A DNA stretch of 64,000 nt. Source: Thermoplasmata archaeon. Its GTDB lineage: Archaea > Thermoplasmatota > Thermoplasmata > Lutacidiplasmatales > SKW197. The stretch covers positions 134,886 to 198,885 of the forward strand of contig JAOAJK010000001.1 in the NCBI GenBank assembly GCA_026414225.1. The letters run 5' to 3'. Position 1 is the stretch's first letter. Every line of letters begins with the position of its first letter. Made by a program: the position numbers and the translations under genes. Below, one piece after another: positions 13,014 to 39,385 of the stretch. The notes below the pieces were generated by a model. The model saw nothing but the letters and a program-made list of their open reading frames with translations, did no database searches and was not told where the DNA came from.

Positions 13014-13044
13014 CAAGCACTTTCACTCACCCCTCCCTTTTACC

Positions 13045-13053
13045 TTTAAATAC
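13045..13053 (+). promoter_or_regulatory. TATA box of the mre11-rad50-xseAB operon
   Basis: TTTAAATAC is centred about 26 bases before the ATG at 13075, giving a leaderless start. This supports 13075 over an upstream in-frame start inside the previous gene. Confidence 0.55.
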
Positions 13054-13074: not shown

Positions 13075-14466
13075 ATGAGTTTGTTTGACTTCGGACGGAA
13101 TGACGCCCTGGGAGAAAAGGTGAACCAGCGGACGGTAAAAATCCAGGAAAGAAGCACAAAAAACCTGAGGGCTCCACCACCCGAAATTCCAGAAAAAAAG
13201 AAAGTGAGATTTGTGCATCTGGCAGATGTGCATCTGGGTGCGTTCAAGGCCCAGCATGAAGTTCTGAGGGAAGCGTCAGCAAAACTTCTGAGGATGGTCG
13301 TTGAGTTCTGTAAAAAATACGATGTGGACTTCATTCTGGTTGCGGGCGACCTCTTTCATGGGAATGTAGTGAAAATCGAAATTCAGAAGGAGTGTGCAGC
13401 CATTCTGACAGATGCGGATGAAAGCGGAATCAGAGTTTATGCGGTGTATGGTTCGCACGATGCAAGCCCGACCCATAGCTCATCTGTGGATGTGCTGGCC
13501 GCGGCGAAGAGAATTACCCTCGTTGAGGTCATGGCATGGAACGAAAACGAAAAGATCAACCTCCTGCCTGTTGTGGACAGATCTGGTGTCTCTCTGGTAG
13601 GAGTTAGTGGAAGAAAACGGGAGATTGAGATAGAATATCTAGATAAGCTGGATTTTGAGACGCTAGAAAAAATCCCAAGGCCGAAGATTTTTATGTTGCA
13701 TTCCACGGTTGCAGAACTCCGCCCAGAATTTTTAAAAGAAGCGGAGGGAGTTTCCTTTGCCCTCCTGCCGAGAAATTTCGATTACTATGCGTGTGGACAT
13801 GTGCACATGAGGAGCGTTAATTTTGCGGAGGACTACGGATTGTTCGTGTATCCTGGGCCCCTGTTTGCCTCAAGTGTGAAGGACCTCGAGGAGAATACAG
13901 AGAGGTTACCTGGCTTTTATCTCGTTGACTTTGATGAGAAGATAACGGAGGAGAACCTTACATTTGTCGATATCTATTCGCTCCAGGCACTGACGGGCCA
14001 CAACGGAGAAATCCCGGACATTGTGTTCGCACAGTTTTCCTTCGGAAATACAACTCCAGGGGAGGTCGAAGACCAACTTAAGAACTGGATTGAAAACAGG
14101 GATTTGAGAAATTCTGTCGTGTATCTAAAACTTGAGGGAAAACTCGTTGAGGGAAAACGCTCGAAGATACCGTTCGAAGAGATTGCGGGGGAGGGTGTTG
14201 CACTGGGAGCACTTGATGTGCTCATAAACAGGGAGGGGCTTGCTGATGCTGAGGTTGACCTGGAGCATGTAGTCCATGGTGAAAGTATCGAGGAAATTGA
14301 AAGAAAGGTTGCAGAGGTTTTTTTTCAGGACGCGGAGGAGGCGAATGAGGCAATAAGGTTAATAGGGATTCTCGGGGCTGAGAAGCTCGAGGGAGAAAGC
14401 AATGAGGCGTATCACACGAGAATTGAGGAAAATGTGAAGAAAAACCTTGACCTGGGAGGCGGGTGA
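13075..14466 (+). CDS. mre11: DNA double-strand break repair nuclease Mre11
   Basis: A 463-residue Mn-dependent nuclease that, with Rad50, recognises and trims DNA ends. The phosphoesterase motifs are present: HLADVHLG, VAGDLFH, YGSHDAS (in place of GNHD), MLHST and YACGHVHMRS. About 45 residues precede motif I, a basic, Pro-containing N-terminal extension that is longer than in typical archaeal homologues. The C-terminal half should hold the capping and Rad50-binding regions. The start follows a TATA box at leaderless distance, and rad50 begins at the base after the stop. It is the first gene of the operon mre11-rad50-xseA-xseB-DUF447; no herA or nurA is adjacent, although these usually accompany mre11 in thermophilic archaea. 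Confidence 0.92.
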   Translation: MSLFDFGRNDALGEKVNQRTVKIQERSTKNLRAPPPEIPEKKKVRFVHLADVHLGAFKAQHEVLREASAKLLRMVVEFCKKYDVDFILVAGDLFHGNVVKIEIQKECAAILTDADESGIRVYAVYGSHDASPTHSSSVDVLAAAKRITLVEVMAWNENEKINLLPVVDRSGVSLVGVSGRKREIEIEYLDKLDFETLEKIPRPKIFMLHSTVAELRPEFLKEAEGVSFALLPRNFDYYACGHVHMRSVNFAEDYGLFVYPGPLFASSVKDLEENTERLPGFYLVDFDEKITEENLTFVDIYSLQALTGHNGEIPDIVFAQFSFGNTTPGEVEDQLKNWIENRDLRNSVVYLKLEGKLVEGKRSKIPFEEIAGEGVALGALDVLINREGLADAEVDLEHVVHGESIEEIERKVAEVFFQDAEEANEAIRLIGILGAEKLEGESNEAYHTRIEENVKKNLDLGGG

Positions 14467-16977
14467 ATGCGAATAAAGAAGATTGTGCTTGAGAACATAA
14501 GGAGCTATGTCCATGAGGAAATTGAGTTTGGCAAAGGTCTGAGCTTCTTCGAGGGCGACATCGGGGCAGGAAAGAGCACAATTTTGATGGCAGTAAAATT
14601 TGCATTGTTCGGGAAGAGCAGGGGCCTGGAGTATCTACAGCTTCTGAGGGAGGGGGCCAGGGAGGGTTCTGTAAGATTGACATTTCTTGTGGACGGGAAG
14701 GAATACATCATATCAAGGGTGTTGCGGAGGAAAACACCGAGAAAAAAAGGAGAGGTTGTGGAGGTGATTGAACAGGAGAAGGTGGTGATTGAGGATGAAA
14801 ATACGAAACAGGAACTCGCACCCAGAGACGCAGACGAGAGAATTCTGAAGATTCTCGGAGCCGGTAGAAGGCTGAGAAAGCAAACCTTCTCAAAGATGTA
14901 TGAGTACGCCCTCTATGTGCCGCAGGAAGAGATGAAGGCGATCCTCGCAGACCTGAAGCAGGACAGAGAGGCAAAGAGGAAAACCATCTCCCATCTTTTT
15001 GGTTGCGAGGTTTATGGAGTTGCGAGGGAGAATGCGAATGTGGTCAGAAAGGCGATGGAGAAGGAAATTGAACTTGCAATGGCAAAGCTCGGAGAGAATT
15101 GTGTCGAGATAGACAAGAAGGAGCAGGAGCTCGCTCAGGAGCGAAAGGAATTGGAGCAAAAAGGGGCAGAAGCTAGTAGGATTGAAGAAGAAATCGCGGA
15201 ATTAAATAGGAAAGTCACAGAGCTGAAGGTCCAAGTTGAAACCTTCGAGAAATTACGGAAAGAAAGGGAGGGGCTGGAGGGAAAAAAGAGAGAACTTCGG
15301 GTAAAGAAGGAGCAGATTAGCAAAGAGATTGGGAGACACAAGGAAGAGATTGCAGGGTGTCTCGGGGAGATTGAGACGAAAAAGGGGAGACAGGAGGAGC
15401 TGAAGCCCCACTACGAGAATTTTGTTTGCCTTTCTAAGAGAGTTGAAGAGGGGAGGATGAAGAAGAAAAAGGTGGAAAAAATTGAGGAGCAGATAAATAA
15501 AAAACAGGGAAGTGCCGAGGAAATAAGGAAACAGATTACGGAGCTGGAAGAGAGGATTAAAGGGGCTGACGAAATCAGAAGAAAGCTTGAAAGTTTTGGG
15601 GATTTAGAAAAGGATCTGGAAGTTCTAGAACAGGAGAAAGCCGAGAACACCGAGAAAATTTCCGTGCTGAGGACAGAAATTGAGGGGTTGAAGAAGGAAA
15701 TTGGGGAGAGTGAAAAGGAGAAAGCGGAGATGACTGGGCTTGCGGGTCTCCAGGTGTGTCCGAAGTGCAGGCAGCCGTTAACAAAAGACCACATAGACCG
15801 GATGCGCAGGGAAATCGAGGAAAAAGTGGTGGAAAAGACAAAGGCCATAAAAGAGAATGAAGCCATCGCAAGCAGGATAAAGGCAAGACAGGTATTCGTG
15901 GAGAACCAGATAAAGGAGAAGAGGAAAATCCTGAAGGAGAAGGAGAAACTCCAGCATTCGCTCGAGGAAATTGAGCGGAAGAGAGCGGAAATGGCAGAAG
16001 CGAAAAAGAGGGTTGCGGCGATCGAGGCCGAAATTGAACATCTCAAAAAAGAGGTGGCGGCCACGGGATTTGACAGGCAGCAGTTTGCCGAGATTGAGAG
16101 GCAGCACCAGGAACTGAAACCGTTTGATGAAGAGTGGAAAGGCCTCACCGCGGAGATTAGAGAAAAGGAGAAGCAGCTTGAAATTTTAAGTAAAAAATTG
16201 GGAGAATATGAGAAAGACTACCAGGATGTTTGCACGGAGCTCGAGGCAGTGGAGGCGAAACTCGAGGAAATTGTGTACGATGAACACGAGGATAAAAAAA
16301 CCCGTGAAAACTTTACAGAGATATCCAAGGAACTTGCTGCGAAGAAGGAGGGGGTTGCCAGGATTATGGAGCAGATGAAGGAGAAGAAGAAGAGGATTGG
16401 AGAGATTGAAAAGGAACTTGAGGAACTGAGAAGAATCAAGGAAAGGATGGAGAAATGCAGGGGTTATGTGGAATGGTTCGAAAAACTGGCGAAGTGCTAT
16501 GAGGAGATTGAAAAAAATGTGCTTAGAGAGGCAAGATACCTGCTGGAGGAGGAACTCCGCGCTCTCTTCAACGAGTTGATGGAAAACGCAGAGATGGATA
16601 TTACTTTGGACGAAAATTTTACACCGGAAATCAGTGTCGGTGATGGTTACATCAGGCCCTTCGAAAATCTGAGTGGTGGCGAGGGCACCGCGCTCGCGCT
16701 CGCTTACCGTCTGGCATTAAACAGGGTGATTACAAGGAGTTTCTTCGGCGAGAATGCCCTGCTCATCCTCGATGAACCCACGGATGGGTTCTCAAGTGAA
16801 CAGATAAACTCGCTCAGGGAATTGCTTGGAAGGATAAAGGAGAACTATGCGGATGGCCAGATTTTTGTGGTCTCGCATGAGCAGGAGCTTGAGGGCGTCG
16901 CGGATGTGGTTTATGAGGTTACCCAAACTGGCAATGGCACGAAAGTTAAAATGAGGGGTGCCGATGCAAACATCTGA
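14467..16977 (+). CDS. rad50: DNA double-strand break repair ATPase Rad50
   Basis: An 836-residue SMC-like ATPase. The N-terminal ATPase half has Walker A GDIGAGKST; a long coiled coil then runs to and from a zinc hook with CPKC at residues 431-434, which dimerises through a shared zinc ion. The C-terminal half has the signature LSGGEGTALALAYRLAL, Walker B ALLILDEPTDGFSSEQ and a final VVSHEQEL. Length is normal for archaeal Rad50. It should form the Mre11-Rad50 end-processing complex with the upstream gene. Its end overlaps xseA by 20 bases, a strong sign that exonuclease VII is made together with it. Confidence 0.95.
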   Translation: MRIKKIVLENIRSYVHEEIEFGKGLSFFEGDIGAGKSTILMAVKFALFGKSRGLEYLQLLREGAREGSVRLTFLVDGKEYIISRVLRRKTPRKKGEVVEVIEQEKVVIEDENTKQELAPRDADERILKILGAGRRLRKQTFSKMYEYALYVPQEEMKAILADLKQDREAKRKTISHLFGCEVYGVARENANVVRKAMEKEIELAMAKLGENCVEIDKKEQELAQERKELEQKGAEASRIEEEIAELNRKVTELKVQVETFEKLRKEREGLEGKKRELRVKKEQISKEIGRHKEEIAGCLGEIETKKGRQEELKPHYENFVCLSKRVEEGRMKKKKVEKIEEQINKKQGSAEEIRKQITELEERIKGADEIRRKLESFGDLEKDLEVLEQEKAENTEKISVLRTEIEGLKKEIGESEKEKAEMTGLAGLQVCPKCRQPLTKDHIDRMRREIEEKVVEKTKAIKENEAIASRIKARQVFVENQIKEKRKILKEKEKLQHSLEEIERKRAEMAEAKKRVAAIEAEIEHLKKEVAATGFDRQQFAEIERQHQELKPFDEEWKGLTAEIREKEKQLEILSKKLGEYEKDYQDVCTELEAVEAKLEEIVYDEHEDKKTRENFTEISKELAAKKEGVARIMEQMKEKKKRIGEIEKELEELRRIKERMEKCRGYVEWFEKLAKCYEEIEKNVLREARYLLEEELRALFNELMENAEMDITLDENFTPEISVGDGYIRPFENLSGGEGTALALAYRLALNRVITRSFFGENALLILDEPTDGFSSEQINSLRELLGRIKENYADGQIFVVSHEQELEGVADVVYEVTQTGNGTKVKMRGADANI

Positions 16978-18196
16978 GGACATAAAAGTTTACACTGTAA
17001 CCGAATTTGCCTCAAAAATAAAAGGGCACATTAAATCGGAGAAGAGTTTCCAGGATGTGTATGTGCGGGGAGAAGTAAGCAATTTCGGTGGGAATGCCCA
17101 GCGGGTTTACTTTGATATTAAAGACGAATTTTCAAGAGTGCATGTGGTGATGTTCGACACTTCAGAGGCCCTTTCACAACTTAAGGACGGGCTGAGCGTG
17201 GTAGTCCACGGGAAGCTGGATTTCTACCAGCGAGATGGAAAATTGAATTTGATTGCGGATAGCTTTTTTGCTGGTGGCATAGGTGAGGTTTATCTGAGAC
17301 TTGAGAGGTTGAAGGAGCGGCTGCGGGCCGAGGGGCTTTTCGCACCGGAGGTGAAGAAGCCAGTTCCGAAGTATATTTTCAGGGTCGGAATTGCAACCTC
17401 GCTCAAGGGTGCGGCGGTGCATGACATTCTTCACGCCCTCCAGAATGCAAAGGGACTTGAGATATACATTGTGGACACGGTCGTCCAGGGTGAAGGAGCA
17501 AAGGACAGTATCGTAAGGTCAATCAGGACCCTGAACTCTCTCGGTGTGGATGTAATTCTGGTTGCAAGGGGAGGGGGAAGCATTGAGGACCTGTGGGCAT
17601 TCAACGAGGAGGTGGTAGTTAGAGCAATCAGGAATTCAAGGGTGCCGGTGATCACAGGCATCGGGCATGAGACTGACAGAACCCTCGCAGACATGGCCGC
17701 AGACAGGGAATTTCCGACACCTTCGTATGCGGGTAAATTTATCTACGAGCAATGGAAAAATGGATGCGATTTCGTCGAAAGAGAGAGGACCGAGCTTACG
17801 AATGCGGTTCAATCCTACCTGCAGGAGTTGTATGTTTCGCTGGATTTGATCGCGTCAAAAATCTCAAAGGAGGAATTCCACCGTATTGTTCTGGTTTACA
17901 AGACACGGCTGGAGATGCTCTCAACCGGCCTGCGAAATGCGGTCTTTGATTGTGTCCAGTATAAAAAAATGCAGGTGGAGAACGCGGAAACGCTGCTCAC
18001 CTCACTGAACCCGGAGGCAATTTTGAAGCAGGGGTATGTCTACATTACGAAGGAGGACAGGGTTGTTGTGACGGGTTCAGAACTCGAGAGGGAGGATTGT
18101 GTCAAGATTCATTTTACTGATGTGGTTGTGGAGGCAAAGGTGCTTGAAAAAGAGGTGAAAGAATGGAAGCTGGAAAAAGTTTTGAAGAGAAGTTGA
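16958..18196 (+). CDS. xseA: Exodeoxyribonuclease VII large subunit
   Basis: The catalytic subunit of exonuclease VII, which cuts single-stranded DNA from both ends into oligonucleotides without metal. The 412-residue protein has the N-terminal OB fold (YVRGEVSNFGG, YFDIKDEFSRVHVVMF) and the conserved catalytic block: VGIATSLKGAAVHDILHAL, ILVARGGGSIEDLWAFNEE, TGIGHETDRTLADMAAD and PTPSYAGKF. A C-terminal helical region follows, then the segment LNPEAILKQGYVYI that is typical of XseA. Translation begins inside rad50 (GTG at 16958 or ATG at 16964), and the end overlaps xseB by 34 bases. Exonuclease VII is mainly bacterial and patchy in archaea. Confidence 0.93.
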   Translation: MPMQTSEDIKVYTVTEFASKIKGHIKSEKSFQDVYVRGEVSNFGGNAQRVYFDIKDEFSRVHVVMFDTSEALSQLKDGLSVVVHGKLDFYQRDGKLNLIADSFFAGGIGEVYLRLERLKERLRAEGLFAPEVKKPVPKYIFRVGIATSLKGAAVHDILHALQNAKGLEIYIVDTVVQGEGAKDSIVRSIRTLNSLGVDVILVARGGGSIEDLWAFNEEVVVRAIRNSRVPVITGIGHETDRTLADMAADREFPTPSYAGKFIYEQWKNGCDFVERERTELTNAVQSYLQELYVSLDLIASKISKEEFHRIVLVYKTRLEMLSTGLRNAVFDCVQYKKMQVENAETLLTSLNPEAILKQGYVYITKEDRVVVTGSELEREDCVKIHFTDVVVEAKVLEKEVKEWKLEKVLKRS

Positions 18197-18390
18197 AGCG
18201 CGTAGAAGAGATAATTGCAAAGATACAGAAGAGAGAGGTGTCGTTGAACGAGATGCTCGCCTACTTTGAGGAAGGTACGAAGATTCTAAAGGAGTGCAGG
18301 GAAGAACTGACAGAAGTTGAAAACAGAATAAAGTATTTGATTGACGAGGAAAACCAGGTAAAGGAGATAAAACCGGATGAGGGTCATTGA
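18163..18390 (+). CDS. xseB: Exodeoxyribonuclease VII small subunit
   Basis: A 75-residue helical protein matching XseB: SFEEKLKRVEEIIAKIQKRE, then VSLNEMLAYFEEGTKILKEC, the two-helix pattern of the family, in which several copies bind each XseA. The ATG lies within the end of xseA, and its stop overlaps the DUF447 gene by 14 bases. Its presence beside xseA shows that a complete exonuclease VII is encoded, not a stray XseA homologue. Confidence 0.88.
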   Translation: MEAGKSFEEKLKRVEEIIAKIQKREVSLNEMLAYFEEGTKILKECREELTEVENRIKYLIDEENQVKEIKPDEGH

Positions 18391-18958
18391 AGCCGTTGTG
18401 GTCACGAAAAATTCGCACATAAATGCTGCAGCGATAGGTGTCTGGTATGAGGGAGAGTTCTATCGATTGCGGGTTTTCGAAAACTCAAACACTTATGCGA
18501 ACCTCATCAAGGATGAGAATTTTTCAATAAATTTTGTTTCTCCGGAGCAACTTGACATTCTGGTCCGCTGTGCACTCGCCGGGCATAACAATCAGGTGCA
18601 GGAACTCGCGGACGATGCTTTTTTGTTCTGGCATGGTGTGCCATATCTCAAAGGGACATTCAGCGTGATTGCAAAGGTGGACCGGAGGGAATTTCTGGTT
18701 GTTGAGGACTGGGTGGGGAAGTCAAAGTGCCTTCTGGTCGAGGCAAGTGAGGTTCAGAGGTGTGGGGAATTGAGAGGTACGATTACGAGGGAGGAATTTA
18801 ATCCCTTGCTAGAATCCGCTGTGCTTGCAACAAAGTATTTTGATGCCAGTGCTGAGGCGAAGGTTGAAATAAGGAGAAGGGTTGAGGCCTTGCTTCCATT
18901 AATCGAGGGATTTGAGGAGGAGGTCGGATGGATAAGGGAGATTGTGGAAATTAAGTGA
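18377..18958 (+). CDS. DUF447 family protein (predicted flavin-binding split barrel)
   Basis: A 193-residue protein matching the archaeal DUF447 family, whose members have a split beta-barrel fold related to FMN-binding proteins. The N-terminal half reads VIEAVVVTKNSHINAAAIGVW, like the strand pattern of pyridoxamine-oxidase-like flavoproteins, and the C-terminal half is helical. Biochemical function is unknown. The gene overlaps xseB and ends the operon, so it is made with the DNA-end-processing proteins; whether it takes part in DNA repair is open. Confidence 0.8.
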   Translation: MRVIEAVVVTKNSHINAAAIGVWYEGEFYRLRVFENSNTYANLIKDENFSINFVSPEQLDILVRCALAGHNNQVQELADDAFLFWHGVPYLKGTFSVIAKVDRREFLVVEDWVGKSKCLLVEASEVQRCGELRGTITREEFNPLLESAVLATKYFDASAEAKVEIRRRVEALLPLIEGFEEEVGWIREIVEIK

Positions 18959-22968: not shown

Positions 22969-23652
22969 ATGATACCAAGAGTGAAGACATTTGTAAGGGG
23001 ACTGGACGAGATAATGGACGGTGGCATTCCCGAGGGCAGTGTAGTTCTGCTGCTCGGAAAGCCAGGCACAATGAAATCCTCGATCGCCTATTCCATAATC
23101 TACAAAAATGTGGAGGAGGCAGGAAGGAAGGCACTGTATGTGAGCCTGGAACAGAGTGCCTCTAGCCTGATTGAAAACATGGGAGGCATGGGATTTGCAC
23201 CGCCAGGCGTTGACTCAAATCTGAGTGTGCTTGACCTCGGGTTGCTCCGAAAGAAGATGACCCAGCTTACCCAGCAGGCGTGGATTGAGATTTTCAGAAT
23301 GTACATCCTCAATCTGAAGAGCAACTTCAATTTTGATCTGCTTGTGATTGACTCGCTGCCCGTGCTGGAAATGCTGGCAAAATTCAAGGAGCCAAGGGAC
23401 GAACTGTTCCAGTTGTTTGAATGGCTCCGTGACCTGAAGGTAACCACCTTCCTGATACACGAGGAGACAGGCGGCTCAATGAGTTATGGTGAGGATTTCC
23501 TCGCAGATGGAATTATCCATCTGGATTTACGTAGGGAAATGAATGCGGTCAATTTGTTCCTCAGCATAATGAAGATGCGGAGAACCAACCACAGGCGAGG
23601 TTACTTCCCGCTAATTTTCGAGCACGGAAACTTTGAGATTGTAACCGACTGA
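22969..23652 (+). CDS. KaiC/RAD55-like RecA-superfamily ATPase
   Basis: A 227-residue single-domain ATPase of the KaiC/GvpD/RAD55 group (COG0467 type). It opens with the family hallmark VRGLDEIMDGGIPEGSVVLL, followed by a Walker A GKPGTMKSS in which the residue before the lysine is Met instead of Gly; the same change occurs in other archaeal members of this group. Walker B is FDLLVIDSLP. Such proteins are thought to be ATP-dependent regulators or signalling switches; the partner is unknown. It has its own TATA box and stands between a surface-protein gene and the mevalonate-pathway genes, so the context gives no clear role. Confidence 0.82.
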   Translation: MIPRVKTFVRGLDEIMDGGIPEGSVVLLLGKPGTMKSSIAYSIIYKNVEEAGRKALYVSLEQSASSLIENMGGMGFAPPGVDSNLSVLDLGLLRKKMTQLTQQAWIEIFRMYILNLKSNFNFDLLVIDSLPVLEMLAKFKEPRDELFQLFEWLRDLKVTTFLIHEETGGSMSYGEDFLADGIIHLDLRREMNAVNLFLSIMKMRRTNHRRGYFPLIFEHGNFEIVTD

Positions 23653-36994: not shown

Positions 36995-37970
36995 CCTCTT
37001 CCTCGCTGCCCACCGCTCTGTATCTACTTGGTTCTGGCTCGTCAACTAATCCTTTTTCGATAAGCGAGAGTGCGATATCCTCTATTTTCTCCGGTTCCAT
37101 CCCCGTAAGCTCCACCAGTTCATCCATAACAACGCCCTCTCTCTTGTAACTCTTTATCATCTCATAGAGGGTGCGTTCCTCGTCTCCAACCTCTGCTTCA
37201 AGTTCACTAATTTCAGCCTCAAATTCACTTTCCGCACCCCGACTCTCTTCTGGGGTTTCTTCAACTTCCTCGCCCATCACAATTCTTAGAGCCTCGACCG
37301 CCTTTTCCCTGTACCTCGCAATCCTTTCGATGTCAATTCCGTAGTATTTTTTCGCCCTGAACGCTGCCTCGGCTTCACTTCTGGTAAAACCGATTGCCAT
37401 CAGATTTTCAATGCTTTCTGGCTCCATCTTGGCCAATTCCTCTAGACATTCCAAGCGACGGAGCAGCAATTTTGCGGCTTGAACGAGCCAGTAATGATGC
37501 AACTCCTGAGTAGAATTGCAGAGCACTTCTGGCCTGATTGAGATATAGAATCTTGTTTCATCTGGCCTGTAGGTTCTTATCTTCCCTGTGAGAAAAATAA
37601 CCCTCGGCACATCATTAGGCCCTATACTCTTCACATAATTCACAATCTCGGAACGGAAGTTTGGGGTGAGAACGAAGACCTTGCCCAGGCTATCCCTCAC
37701 CTCAAATTTCCACATATCCTTTTCACCTATCTGCTTCGGCATACTGATTAGTTTACCAACAAGAAGGACTCGATTCACCCTCAAGCCAGTTGGAGTGATT
37801 ACATAGTTCGGGATTTTGCTCTGGTCTGAAAAGCTGGTGGCCTCCTCACCCGGAAACTCATTGCCTCTTTCTTCCACTGTGGTTTCATCAATTTCAAAAG
37901 AAAAAATTCGGTGGGCAACCTCCCTGCGGGTTGCCTTTTTTACTGTGCGTTGCTGGTCCTCCATATTCAT
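36978..37970 (-). CDS. RPA-associated OB-fold protein (COG3390 type)
   Basis: A 330-residue partner of archaeal replication protein A. The N-terminal part has an OB-fold region (about residues 60-170, VNRVLLVGKLISMPKQIGEK, VIFLTGKIRTYR), the middle is helical, and the end is an acidic stretch followed by a winged-helix-like part (DELVELTGMEPEKIEDIALS) and a poly-Glu tail. The order RPA, then COG3390, is a known euryarchaeal arrangement in which the two proteins bind single-stranded DNA together. The ATG at 37970 overlaps the RPA stop in an ATGA, so translation is coupled; an earlier in-frame start at 38012 is less likely. Confidence 0.83.
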   Translation of the reverse strand: MNMEDQQRTVKKATRREVAHRIFSFEIDETTVEERGNEFPGEEATSFSDQSKIPNYVITPTGLRVNRVLLVGKLISMPKQIGEKDMWKFEVRDSLGKVFVLTPNFRSEIVNYVKSIGPNDVPRVIFLTGKIRTYRPDETRFYISIRPEVLCNSTQELHHYWLVQAAKLLLRRLECLEELAKMEPESIENLMAIGFTRSEAEAAFRAKKYYGIDIERIARYREKAVEALRIVMGEEVEETPEESRGAESEFEAEISELEAEVGDEERTLYEMIKSYKREGVVMDELVELTGMEPEKIEDIALSLIEKGLVDEPEPSRYRAVGSEEEDEEEF

Positions 37971-39286
37971 ACCTCCATTTCCGAAAGCAAACTCTCCGCT
38001 TCTGCCTTGCAATCAATCTGGAGGTTCTGGGCATCCTTCACCAAGAATGTGGTTCCGAACTCCCCGGTGCTTACATTACCCCTGAGATTGAATGCTCTTC
38101 CCAGCAACCTCTCGTTAATATCCCAGAGGGCAGGGTTCACCACACCGTTTTTTCCTACCAGTGAAATGTAGTCCCCGACACCCTTTCCAAGCAGTTTTTC
38201 GCATACTTCTTGCGGAAAGATCGCAATGATAGCACCGGTACCATCATCCACAACACCTTTGATTCTCAGGTCCGTCCTGCTCTCTTTCACCTTCCCATGG
38301 GTTTTGCACATGCCCTTGTCTAGCACCATTCCACAATCAGCGCATCGATACACGAGCCCTGAGGTCTCCTTCACCTCAATCAAAAAACCCTCAATCTGGA
38401 CATTGGACATAAAGCCCTCTCCTTCCTCATAGATGTCCTCTATCAGCACTTCTTTTGGTGCCAGCAATTGGGTTGCGGGGGGAAGTTTCGAACTGTCCAA
38501 TCGCTCTACAGTGGTTTTCTCATCGAGCACCACTGAATGCATGTCCTTCCAGATTTTCTTGTATGCCCCGTTAATTTTCACCACCTCGTCCTCCTTCAAA
38601 TTGAAGTCCTTCCACGCGGTAAAATGCACATGCCCGGTTTCGTCTGCAAGTATCCCTGTGAACAGTATCTTTTCCTCGTCCCCTACTTTCACTGTCTTTT
38701 TTTCTACTGAAATCACTCTTGCAGATAGGGTTACAGGAAATCTGACCCCAGGCAAATCCTTTATCTTTACAGGAGTTCCCAACCTGACATTGGGAAGCTG
38801 GTCCTCGCTCACGGAAGTTATCTCTGTAACTTCTGATGTGTTTATCTGGGGTTCTCCCTGCCATTCCGTAGTGTAGATATTTTTAAACGATAGCACAGCG
38901 CCTTTCTCAATAATGCCCGGGTATTTTTCAGGATTCCACACAACAAAATTAAGCTTCTTTGTGTTGTCGGTAATCAATCCCTTTAGCACCCTCTTTTCGC
39001 TTCCGTCCTTCATCTTAAGGGGCCCATCACTTACAAAAAGGATTTTACCCATCACTGACACATTTCTCATCCCTGCTCTCAATCTAGAAAGATTTACAGG
39101 TTCTCCACCTATTTCCTTCTGAGGTGCCAGCCTGTTGAGCACCACCTCTCTGATTTCGTTGGGTTGGAGGGAGAGTTTCCCAACTATCTCGTTCACGGTC
39201 GCTTCTATCTGTTCTCGGGGCACGTCTTTCATTTCTGGCATCCTGGCGATTTCATCAATCAAGGATGCGATTTTTTCTTTCTGCAT
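37967..39286 (-). CDS. rpa: Replication protein A, single-stranded DNA-binding protein
   Basis: A 439-residue RPA of the euryarchaeal large type. It has an N-terminal helical part, at least three OB folds (MGKILFVSDGPLKMKDGSEK; VTLSARVISVEKKTVKVGDE; a third near FMSNVQIEGFLIEVKET) and a C-terminal zinc finger CADCGMVLDKGMCKTHGKV, as in the related archaeal proteins. It coats single-stranded DNA in replication and repair. ATG 39286 has GAGGTG seven bases upstream and is preferred to a GTG at 39295. A TATA box on the minus strand (39333-39342) lies about 50 bases upstream, leaving a leader of about 25 bases. Confidence 0.9.
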   Translation of the reverse strand: MQKEKIASLIDEIARMPEMKDVPREQIEATVNEIVGKLSLQPNEIREVVLNRLAPQKEIGGEPVNLSRLRAGMRNVSVMGKILFVSDGPLKMKDGSEKRVLKGLITDNTKKLNFVVWNPEKYPGIIEKGAVLSFKNIYTTEWQGEPQINTSEVTEITSVSEDQLPNVRLGTPVKIKDLPGVRFPVTLSARVISVEKKTVKVGDEEKILFTGILADETGHVHFTAWKDFNLKEDEVVKINGAYKKIWKDMHSVVLDEKTTVERLDSSKLPPATQLLAPKEVLIEDIYEEGEGFMSNVQIEGFLIEVKETSGLVYRCADCGMVLDKGMCKTHGKVKESRTDLRIKGVVDDGTGAIIAIFPQEVCEKLLGKGVGDYISLVGKNGVVNPALWDINERLLGRAFNLRGNVSTGEFGTTFLVKDAQNLQIDCKAEAESLLSEMEV

Positions 39287-39332
39287 CGTTTTCACCTCGT
39301 GCCTTTCGGCAACGGAGGAATTTGTGCAGAAG

Positions 39333-39342: not shown

Positions 39343-39385
39343 TTTAGGGGAGGGGGGAGTGAAAGTGAAGGAGGCGAGAGCGAGG

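Follow-up and report, generated by a model that had tools for sequence, protein, structure and literature searches.

The window analyzed here (the whole stretch of 64,000 nt, on contig C11 of the 1.9-Mb, 84-contig genome G000 of a Thermoplasmata archaeon) carries the genes for exonuclease VII (ExoVII) directly behind mre11 and rad50. This arrangement raises the question of whether ExoVII takes the place of HerA-NurA beside Mre11-Rad50, belongs to archaeal recombination in some other way, or lies there as the result of a neutral rearrangement.

Structure and conservation of the operon

An earlier note had described five genes that follow each other with zero spacing or overlaps of 14-34 bases behind one TATA box. 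Our analysis confirmed their coordinates and the single TATA box ahead of them; the four successive spacings are 0, -14, -34, and -14.

13045..13052, + strand: TATA box TTTAAATA, 30 bases before the mre11 ATG; spacing kept in the sister species
13075..14466, + strand: mre11; 463 aa; Pfam Metallophos; best NCBIfam match Mre11, below the equivalog cut-off; PDB Mre11 1ii7, E=2e-19
14467..16977, + strand: rad50; 836 aa; NCBIfam Rad50, E=5e-62, below the equivalog cut-off; Walker A/B, signature LSGGE, CPKC zinc hook
16964..18196, + strand: xseA, ExoVII large subunit; 410 aa; TIGR00237, 366 bits (cut-off 180); PDB 8txr, E=6e-53
18163..18390, + strand: xseB, ExoVII small subunit; 75 aa; TIGR01280, 59.8 bits (cut-off 35)
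18377..18958, + strand: DUF447 protein, predicted FMN-binding split barrel; 193 aa; PF04289

Since the ATG lies so close downstream of the TATA box, the mre11 mRNA is probably leaderless. The earlier description of the exonuclease as complete held up: both subunits scored above their NCBIfam equivalog cut-offs, and the XseA equivalents of D155, R205, H238, and D241, which we take (partly from the literature) to be the catalytic residues of the E. coli enzyme, were kept, with the motifs GAAVHDIL, ARGGGSIEDLW, and GHETD. ExoVII is a metal-independent exonuclease of single-stranded DNA, and the enzyme encoded here would be predicted to act in this way. In contrast to bacterial ExoVII, the large subunit is shorter than the E. 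coli chain (410 versus 456 aa), is co-transcribed with mre11-rad50, and sits on a long stem in a 76-sequence tree, which favored neither a bacterial nor an archaeal origin for XseA.

Mre11 and Rad50 matched their own families over the catalytic parts, and the phosphoesterase motifs of the former and the Walker, signature, and zinc-hook motifs of the latter were all found. The canonical motif III of Mre11 is GNHD; the protein encoded here has GSHD instead (window positions 13450-13464) and an extension of 44 residues N-terminal of motif I, and both features were present in every Thermoplasmatota-type Mre11 orthologue that we looked at. The change from the metal-binding Asn to Ser was seen in the orthologues of loci L016-L044 and L126-L142, and GSHD also occurs in the Mre11 of a classical nurA-herA-mre11-rad50 operon (locus L128).

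The last gene had been called that of a putative flavoprotein, and the predicted structure agrees with this: the AlphaFold model, built from 12 sequences, had a pLDDT of 92, and its best Foldseek matches were the FMN-bound structure 2ptf (E=6e-12) and 2nr4. By its family and modeled fold, the protein resembles the archaeal FMN-binding DUF447 proteins MTH_863 and MM1853, from which it differs in its diverged C-terminal sequence and its location in a repair operon. A role for it in repair was not supported. We rejected DUF447 as a member of the system; elsewhere the neighbors of its gene are a PHP-domain gene and an unknown gene rather than mre11 or xseA, and in family f20 it is found in such an unrelated PHP-domain cluster. 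It is probably a passenger in the operon.

In the sister species (G002, of the same genus), the operon is found again with all five genes, an unchanged set of four spacings, and the same promoter, which indicates that the operon is more than a chance arrangement. The proteins are 71% (Mre11), 62% (Rad50), 75% (XseA), 88% (XseB), and 73% (DUF447) identical, and the base changes fall mostly at third codon positions. However, approximately 24 kb surrounding the operon are collinear between the two species except for two gene insertions, so that the conservation of the operon alone is only weak-to-moderate evidence. The insertions, a TPR-protein gene directly upstream in G002 and a NosD-type gene directly downstream in the window, struck both flanks of the operon and spared its interior. 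The five-gene operon is real, and it combines known parts in a new way.

A KaiC-like ATPase gene (window 22969-23652) encodes a protein that is 100% identical in the two species, with 79 base differences between the genes, 73 of them at third positions; the proteins of its neighbors are 62-91% identical. This gene directly follows DUF447 in G002, 76 bases downstream.

HerA-NurA and ExoVII

The operon resembles the nurA-herA-mre11-rad50 operon of thermophilic archaea, which occurs in its four-gene form in the relative G446, whose xseA is separate, in that mre11-rad50 is co-transcribed with end-processing genes; it differs in having xseA-xseB-DUF447 after rad50, with nurA-herA elsewhere in the genome. 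The earlier note had drawn on this position of xseAB, which in lineages such as that of G446 belongs to herA-nurA, and had proposed that ExoVII replaces HerA-NurA and forms a self-contained resection machine with Mre11-Rad50. We found, however, an adjacent and intact nurA-herA pair on contig C22 of the source genome, and the pair is likewise adjacent and far from mre11 in G002. The presence of this pair in both species of the genus argues that the replacement of HerA-NurA by ExoVII is wrong. Moreover, f20 species have xseA together with nurA-herA-mre11-rad50 in the same genomes, and ExoVII, as a single-strand exonuclease, would depend on a helicase, whereas the operon encodes none. A self-contained machine of this kind is therefore very improbable. 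ExoVII has taken only the position of HerA-NurA in the operon.

Distribution of xseA and its linkage to mre11

A match to xseA was found in 153 of the 390 genomes of our phylum sample, and ExoVII is thus ordinary in the phylum; within the order, xseA was present in only 4 of 106 genomes, and NurA and DUF447 in 2 of 106 each. The gene order mre11-rad50-xseA-xseB was sought in relatives and occurred in the sister species only. None of the 21 genomes outside the genus with xseA and a clear Mre11 match (E below 1e-13) showed adjacency, xseA lay on another contig in all 21, and the gene after rad50 was never xseA in those relatives where both neighborhoods were read. A scan of named genomes with XseA matched bacteria and a few archaea and returned no relatives of the operon. 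The linkage of mre11 and xse is confined to one genus.

In family f4, xseA lies 11-20 kb from a gene for an Mre11-like protein. We did not count this as the same linkage because the Mre11-like proteins are distant and SbcD-like (GNHD, 3 substitutions per site away) and because the intervening genes include those for a P-type ATPase and URO-D. In the f4 genome G374, xseA is divergent to an AddAB-like gene pair (L138:7895-13467, - strand), which encodes a UvrD helicase with a PD-(D/E)XK nuclease and a second PD-(D/E)XK protein; a distant mre11/rad50-like pair lies 10 kb from these genes.

According to the earlier note, relatives with xseA away from mre11, together with herA-nurA elsewhere in this genome, would make the linkage accidental, and we found both. 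It may be that xseAB-DUF447 came to lie behind rad50 through a rearrangement in the genus ancestor and that the proteins work independently; the restriction to one genus with no adjacency in the 21 other genomes, the unrelated DUF447 cluster in f20, and the collinearity of the surrounding 24 kb all agree with such a neutral linkage. We nevertheless regard it as rather unlikely, and the linkage as probably not accidental, since a promoter element ties xseA to radA and to an RPA/SSB gene and recurs before unlinked xseA operons.

A promoter element shared with radA and the RPA/SSB gene

The element precedes the mre11 TATA box and three further promoters of the source genome.

13020..13037, + strand: promoter element CTTTCACTCACCCCTCCC, 18 bp (with flanking bases CACTTTCACTCACCCCTCCC); identical in G002
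39348..39365, - strand: second window copy, upstream of the RPA/SSB gene; 1 mismatch
37967..39295, - strand: RPA/SSB gene, predicted regulon member; ATG at 39286; NCBIfam single-stranded DNA-binding protein / replication factor A; Sulfolobus SSB structure match, E=1.5e-8
G000:C1, L224:6272-7216, - strand: radA; TIGR02236, 507 bits
L222:1641-1736, + strand: 31-codon ORF MQEEFDWCSWEEIYRALGVEVYPAEEAETAE, with the fourth copy upstream; orthologous place in L223

The element of the mre11 promoter is identical in G002 although the rest of the promoter has diverged and the upstream genes differ. A scan of the source genome that allowed up to 3 mismatches returned four places, all with 0-1 mismatch and all with a downstream TATA box, 25 bases from where the element begins: those before mre11, radA, the RPA/SSB gene, and a 31-codon ORF that precedes tRNA-Phe. 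The same scan of the sister genome gave five places, comprising the same four orthologous targets and one place with 3 mismatches. The reversed pattern, used as a control, gave one place in each of the two genomes, and the chance expectation for the window, again at up to 3 mismatches, was 0.13. An ACTTTC core was present in all eight element promoters of the genus. The nurA-herA promoter was without the 18-bp element.

The 31-codon ORF, whose stop lies approximately 120 bases before tRNA-Phe, had no Pfam match; its coding pattern indicates that it is real, with 29 of 31 residues the same in the sister species and 11 of 15 base changes at third positions.

The element before unlinked xseA operons

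Using a pattern derived from the source genus, we found the element before xseA in other families, where xseA is not beside mre11, in 14 of 29 genomes and 6 of 16 families; these counts refer to a limit of 5 mismatches that was picked after the matches had been seen, and genomes within one family are not independent. A TATA box lay 22-31 bases from the element start in 13 of the 14 genomes; the exception was f21, which lacks a TATA box at this spacing, leaving five other families with the element at TATA spacing. The best of 1000 shuffled patterns of the same composition reached 7 genomes and 5 families. The xseA promoters of f3 and f4 were without the element, save for one weak match in f4 (L064, 5 mismatches).

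Within the same loci, the element preceded 14 of 34 xseA operons versus 9 of 310 other operons (Fisher p=2e-10). One of the nine is in fact an xseA operon of f12 that had been misassigned by the operon rule. Of the remaining eight, just two have a TATA box at the proper position, and both are recombinase-PolB operons. In these two (L156:7900-11053, - strand, in f19, and L159:1679-4873, + strand, in f12), the element is followed by a Rad51-like gene and then by a gene for a family-B DNA polymerase, a pair that resembles a damage-inducible polymerase cassette.

Among the mre11 promoters examined outside the genus, the element was found only in G139 and G121, and in none of those from f3 or f20. 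In G139 (f41, another class), a related element occurs before mre11 (5 mismatches) and before the unlinked xseA (6 mismatches); G121 (f24) has a related element in its mre11 promoter.

The diverged element before unlinked xseA operons and two recombinase-PolB operons makes ExoVII look like a member of a recombination regulon. The view of the earlier note that ExoVII belongs with recombination thus gains from the element common to the mre11-xse, radA, and RPA/SSB promoters and from its diverged copies elsewhere. The predicted co-regulation of ExoVII with RadA and RPA/SSB does not depend on gene neighborhood and is well supported by these promoter sequences; it is our best evidence for a function of ExoVII in recombination in these archaea.

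Possible role of ExoVII and comparison with the Sulfolobus damage element

We prefer to interpret the locus as a recombination-repair operon with a shared-element promoter, in which Mre11-Rad50 and ExoVII act alongside HerA-NurA, and we give this explanation as a whole about an even chance. One promoter would yield Mre11-Rad50, a complete ExoVII, and an FMN-binding protein together. Most likely, the element is bound by a regulator common to mre11-xse, radA, the RPA/SSB gene, and the 31-codon ORF, which may raise the expression of these genes jointly upon DNA breaks or blocked replication. Mre11-Rad50 would open or nick blocked or broken ends, and ExoVII could then digest single-stranded flaps and tails of either polarity, perhaps including 5' ends that bear a topoisomerase tyrosine. 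This clearing would let RPA and RadA load, and HerA-NurA would retain processive resection. Both the enzymatic cooperation of ExoVII with Mre11-Rad50 and the removal of tyrosyl adducts are presumed steps. The limitation of adjacency to one genus, the small number of mre11 promoters outside it that carry the element, and the lack of the element before nurA-herA weigh against this explanation.

Mre11-Rad50 cleaves blocked ends, and gyrase A is present in the source genome. The operon might accordingly serve the repair of DNA-protein crosslinks, with Mre11-Rad50 nicking beside trapped gyrase or other covalent proteins, ExoVII removing the tyrosyl-bearing strand, and the resection of double-strand breaks not being the main task. 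In bacteria, 5' tyrosyl adducts of the kind that gyrase leaves are removed by ExoVII (PMC11077951, citing Huang 2021). However, the presence of xseA did not track gyrase, which was found in 66 of 68 sampled genomes with or without xseA and, being nearly universal in the phylum, does not explain which genomes have xseA. The presence of the element before radA and the RPA/SSB gene as well speaks for recombination in general, and we consider a dedicated crosslink-repair unit unlikely.

Among the damage regulons of archaea, that of Sulfolobus, with Orc1-2 and the sequence ANTTTC, has been studied best. This hexamer (5'-ANTTTC-3'), the DNA damage response element (DDRE), is bound by Orc1-2 (PMC5817253; PMC9738581) and occupies positions of about -44 to -39 relative to the start site (PMC5817253). 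The element described here likewise has an ACTTTC core upstream of the TATA box and before repair genes; however, it is 18-20 bp long with a C-rich second half, occurs in a different phylum, and has its ACTTTC at about -56 to -51 relative to the inferred start site, approximately 26 bases before the TATA box. Because the spacing to the TATA box differs by approximately 12-14 bases, common descent with the DDRE is only a lead.

On balance we lean slightly towards the existence, in Thermoplasmatota-type archaea, of a recombination/DNA-damage regulon that can be recognized by CACTTTCACTCACCCCTCCC at constant spacing to the TATA box. Its members would be xseA, the most widely conserved of them, mre11-rad50, radA, RPA/SSB, and the recombinase-PolB cassette, and its element would have the core in common with the Sulfolobus damage element. 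If so, a bacterial-type nuclease would be wired into archaeal recombination with ExoVII as a core member, and a candidate regulon would be defined in a phylum other than that of Sulfolobus. The regulator would become searchable with the 18-bp element as bait, and the common ACTTTC core raises the possibility of an old archaeal damage-response element. The literature that we searched, with partial coverage, contained neither a combined Mre11-Rad50-ExoVII system nor a Thermoplasmatota damage motif, which suggests that the predicted regulon, more interesting than the operon itself, is undescribed.

Two further gene arrangements were observed among the relatives. In f19 and f12, the first gene of the xseA operon encodes a small protein with a HARP domain, related to annealing helicases (L156:4598-5083 and L159:6753-7250, - strand), and a radA/rad51 gene lies directly upstream of mre11-rad50 in G132 of family f36 (L130:5298-10084).
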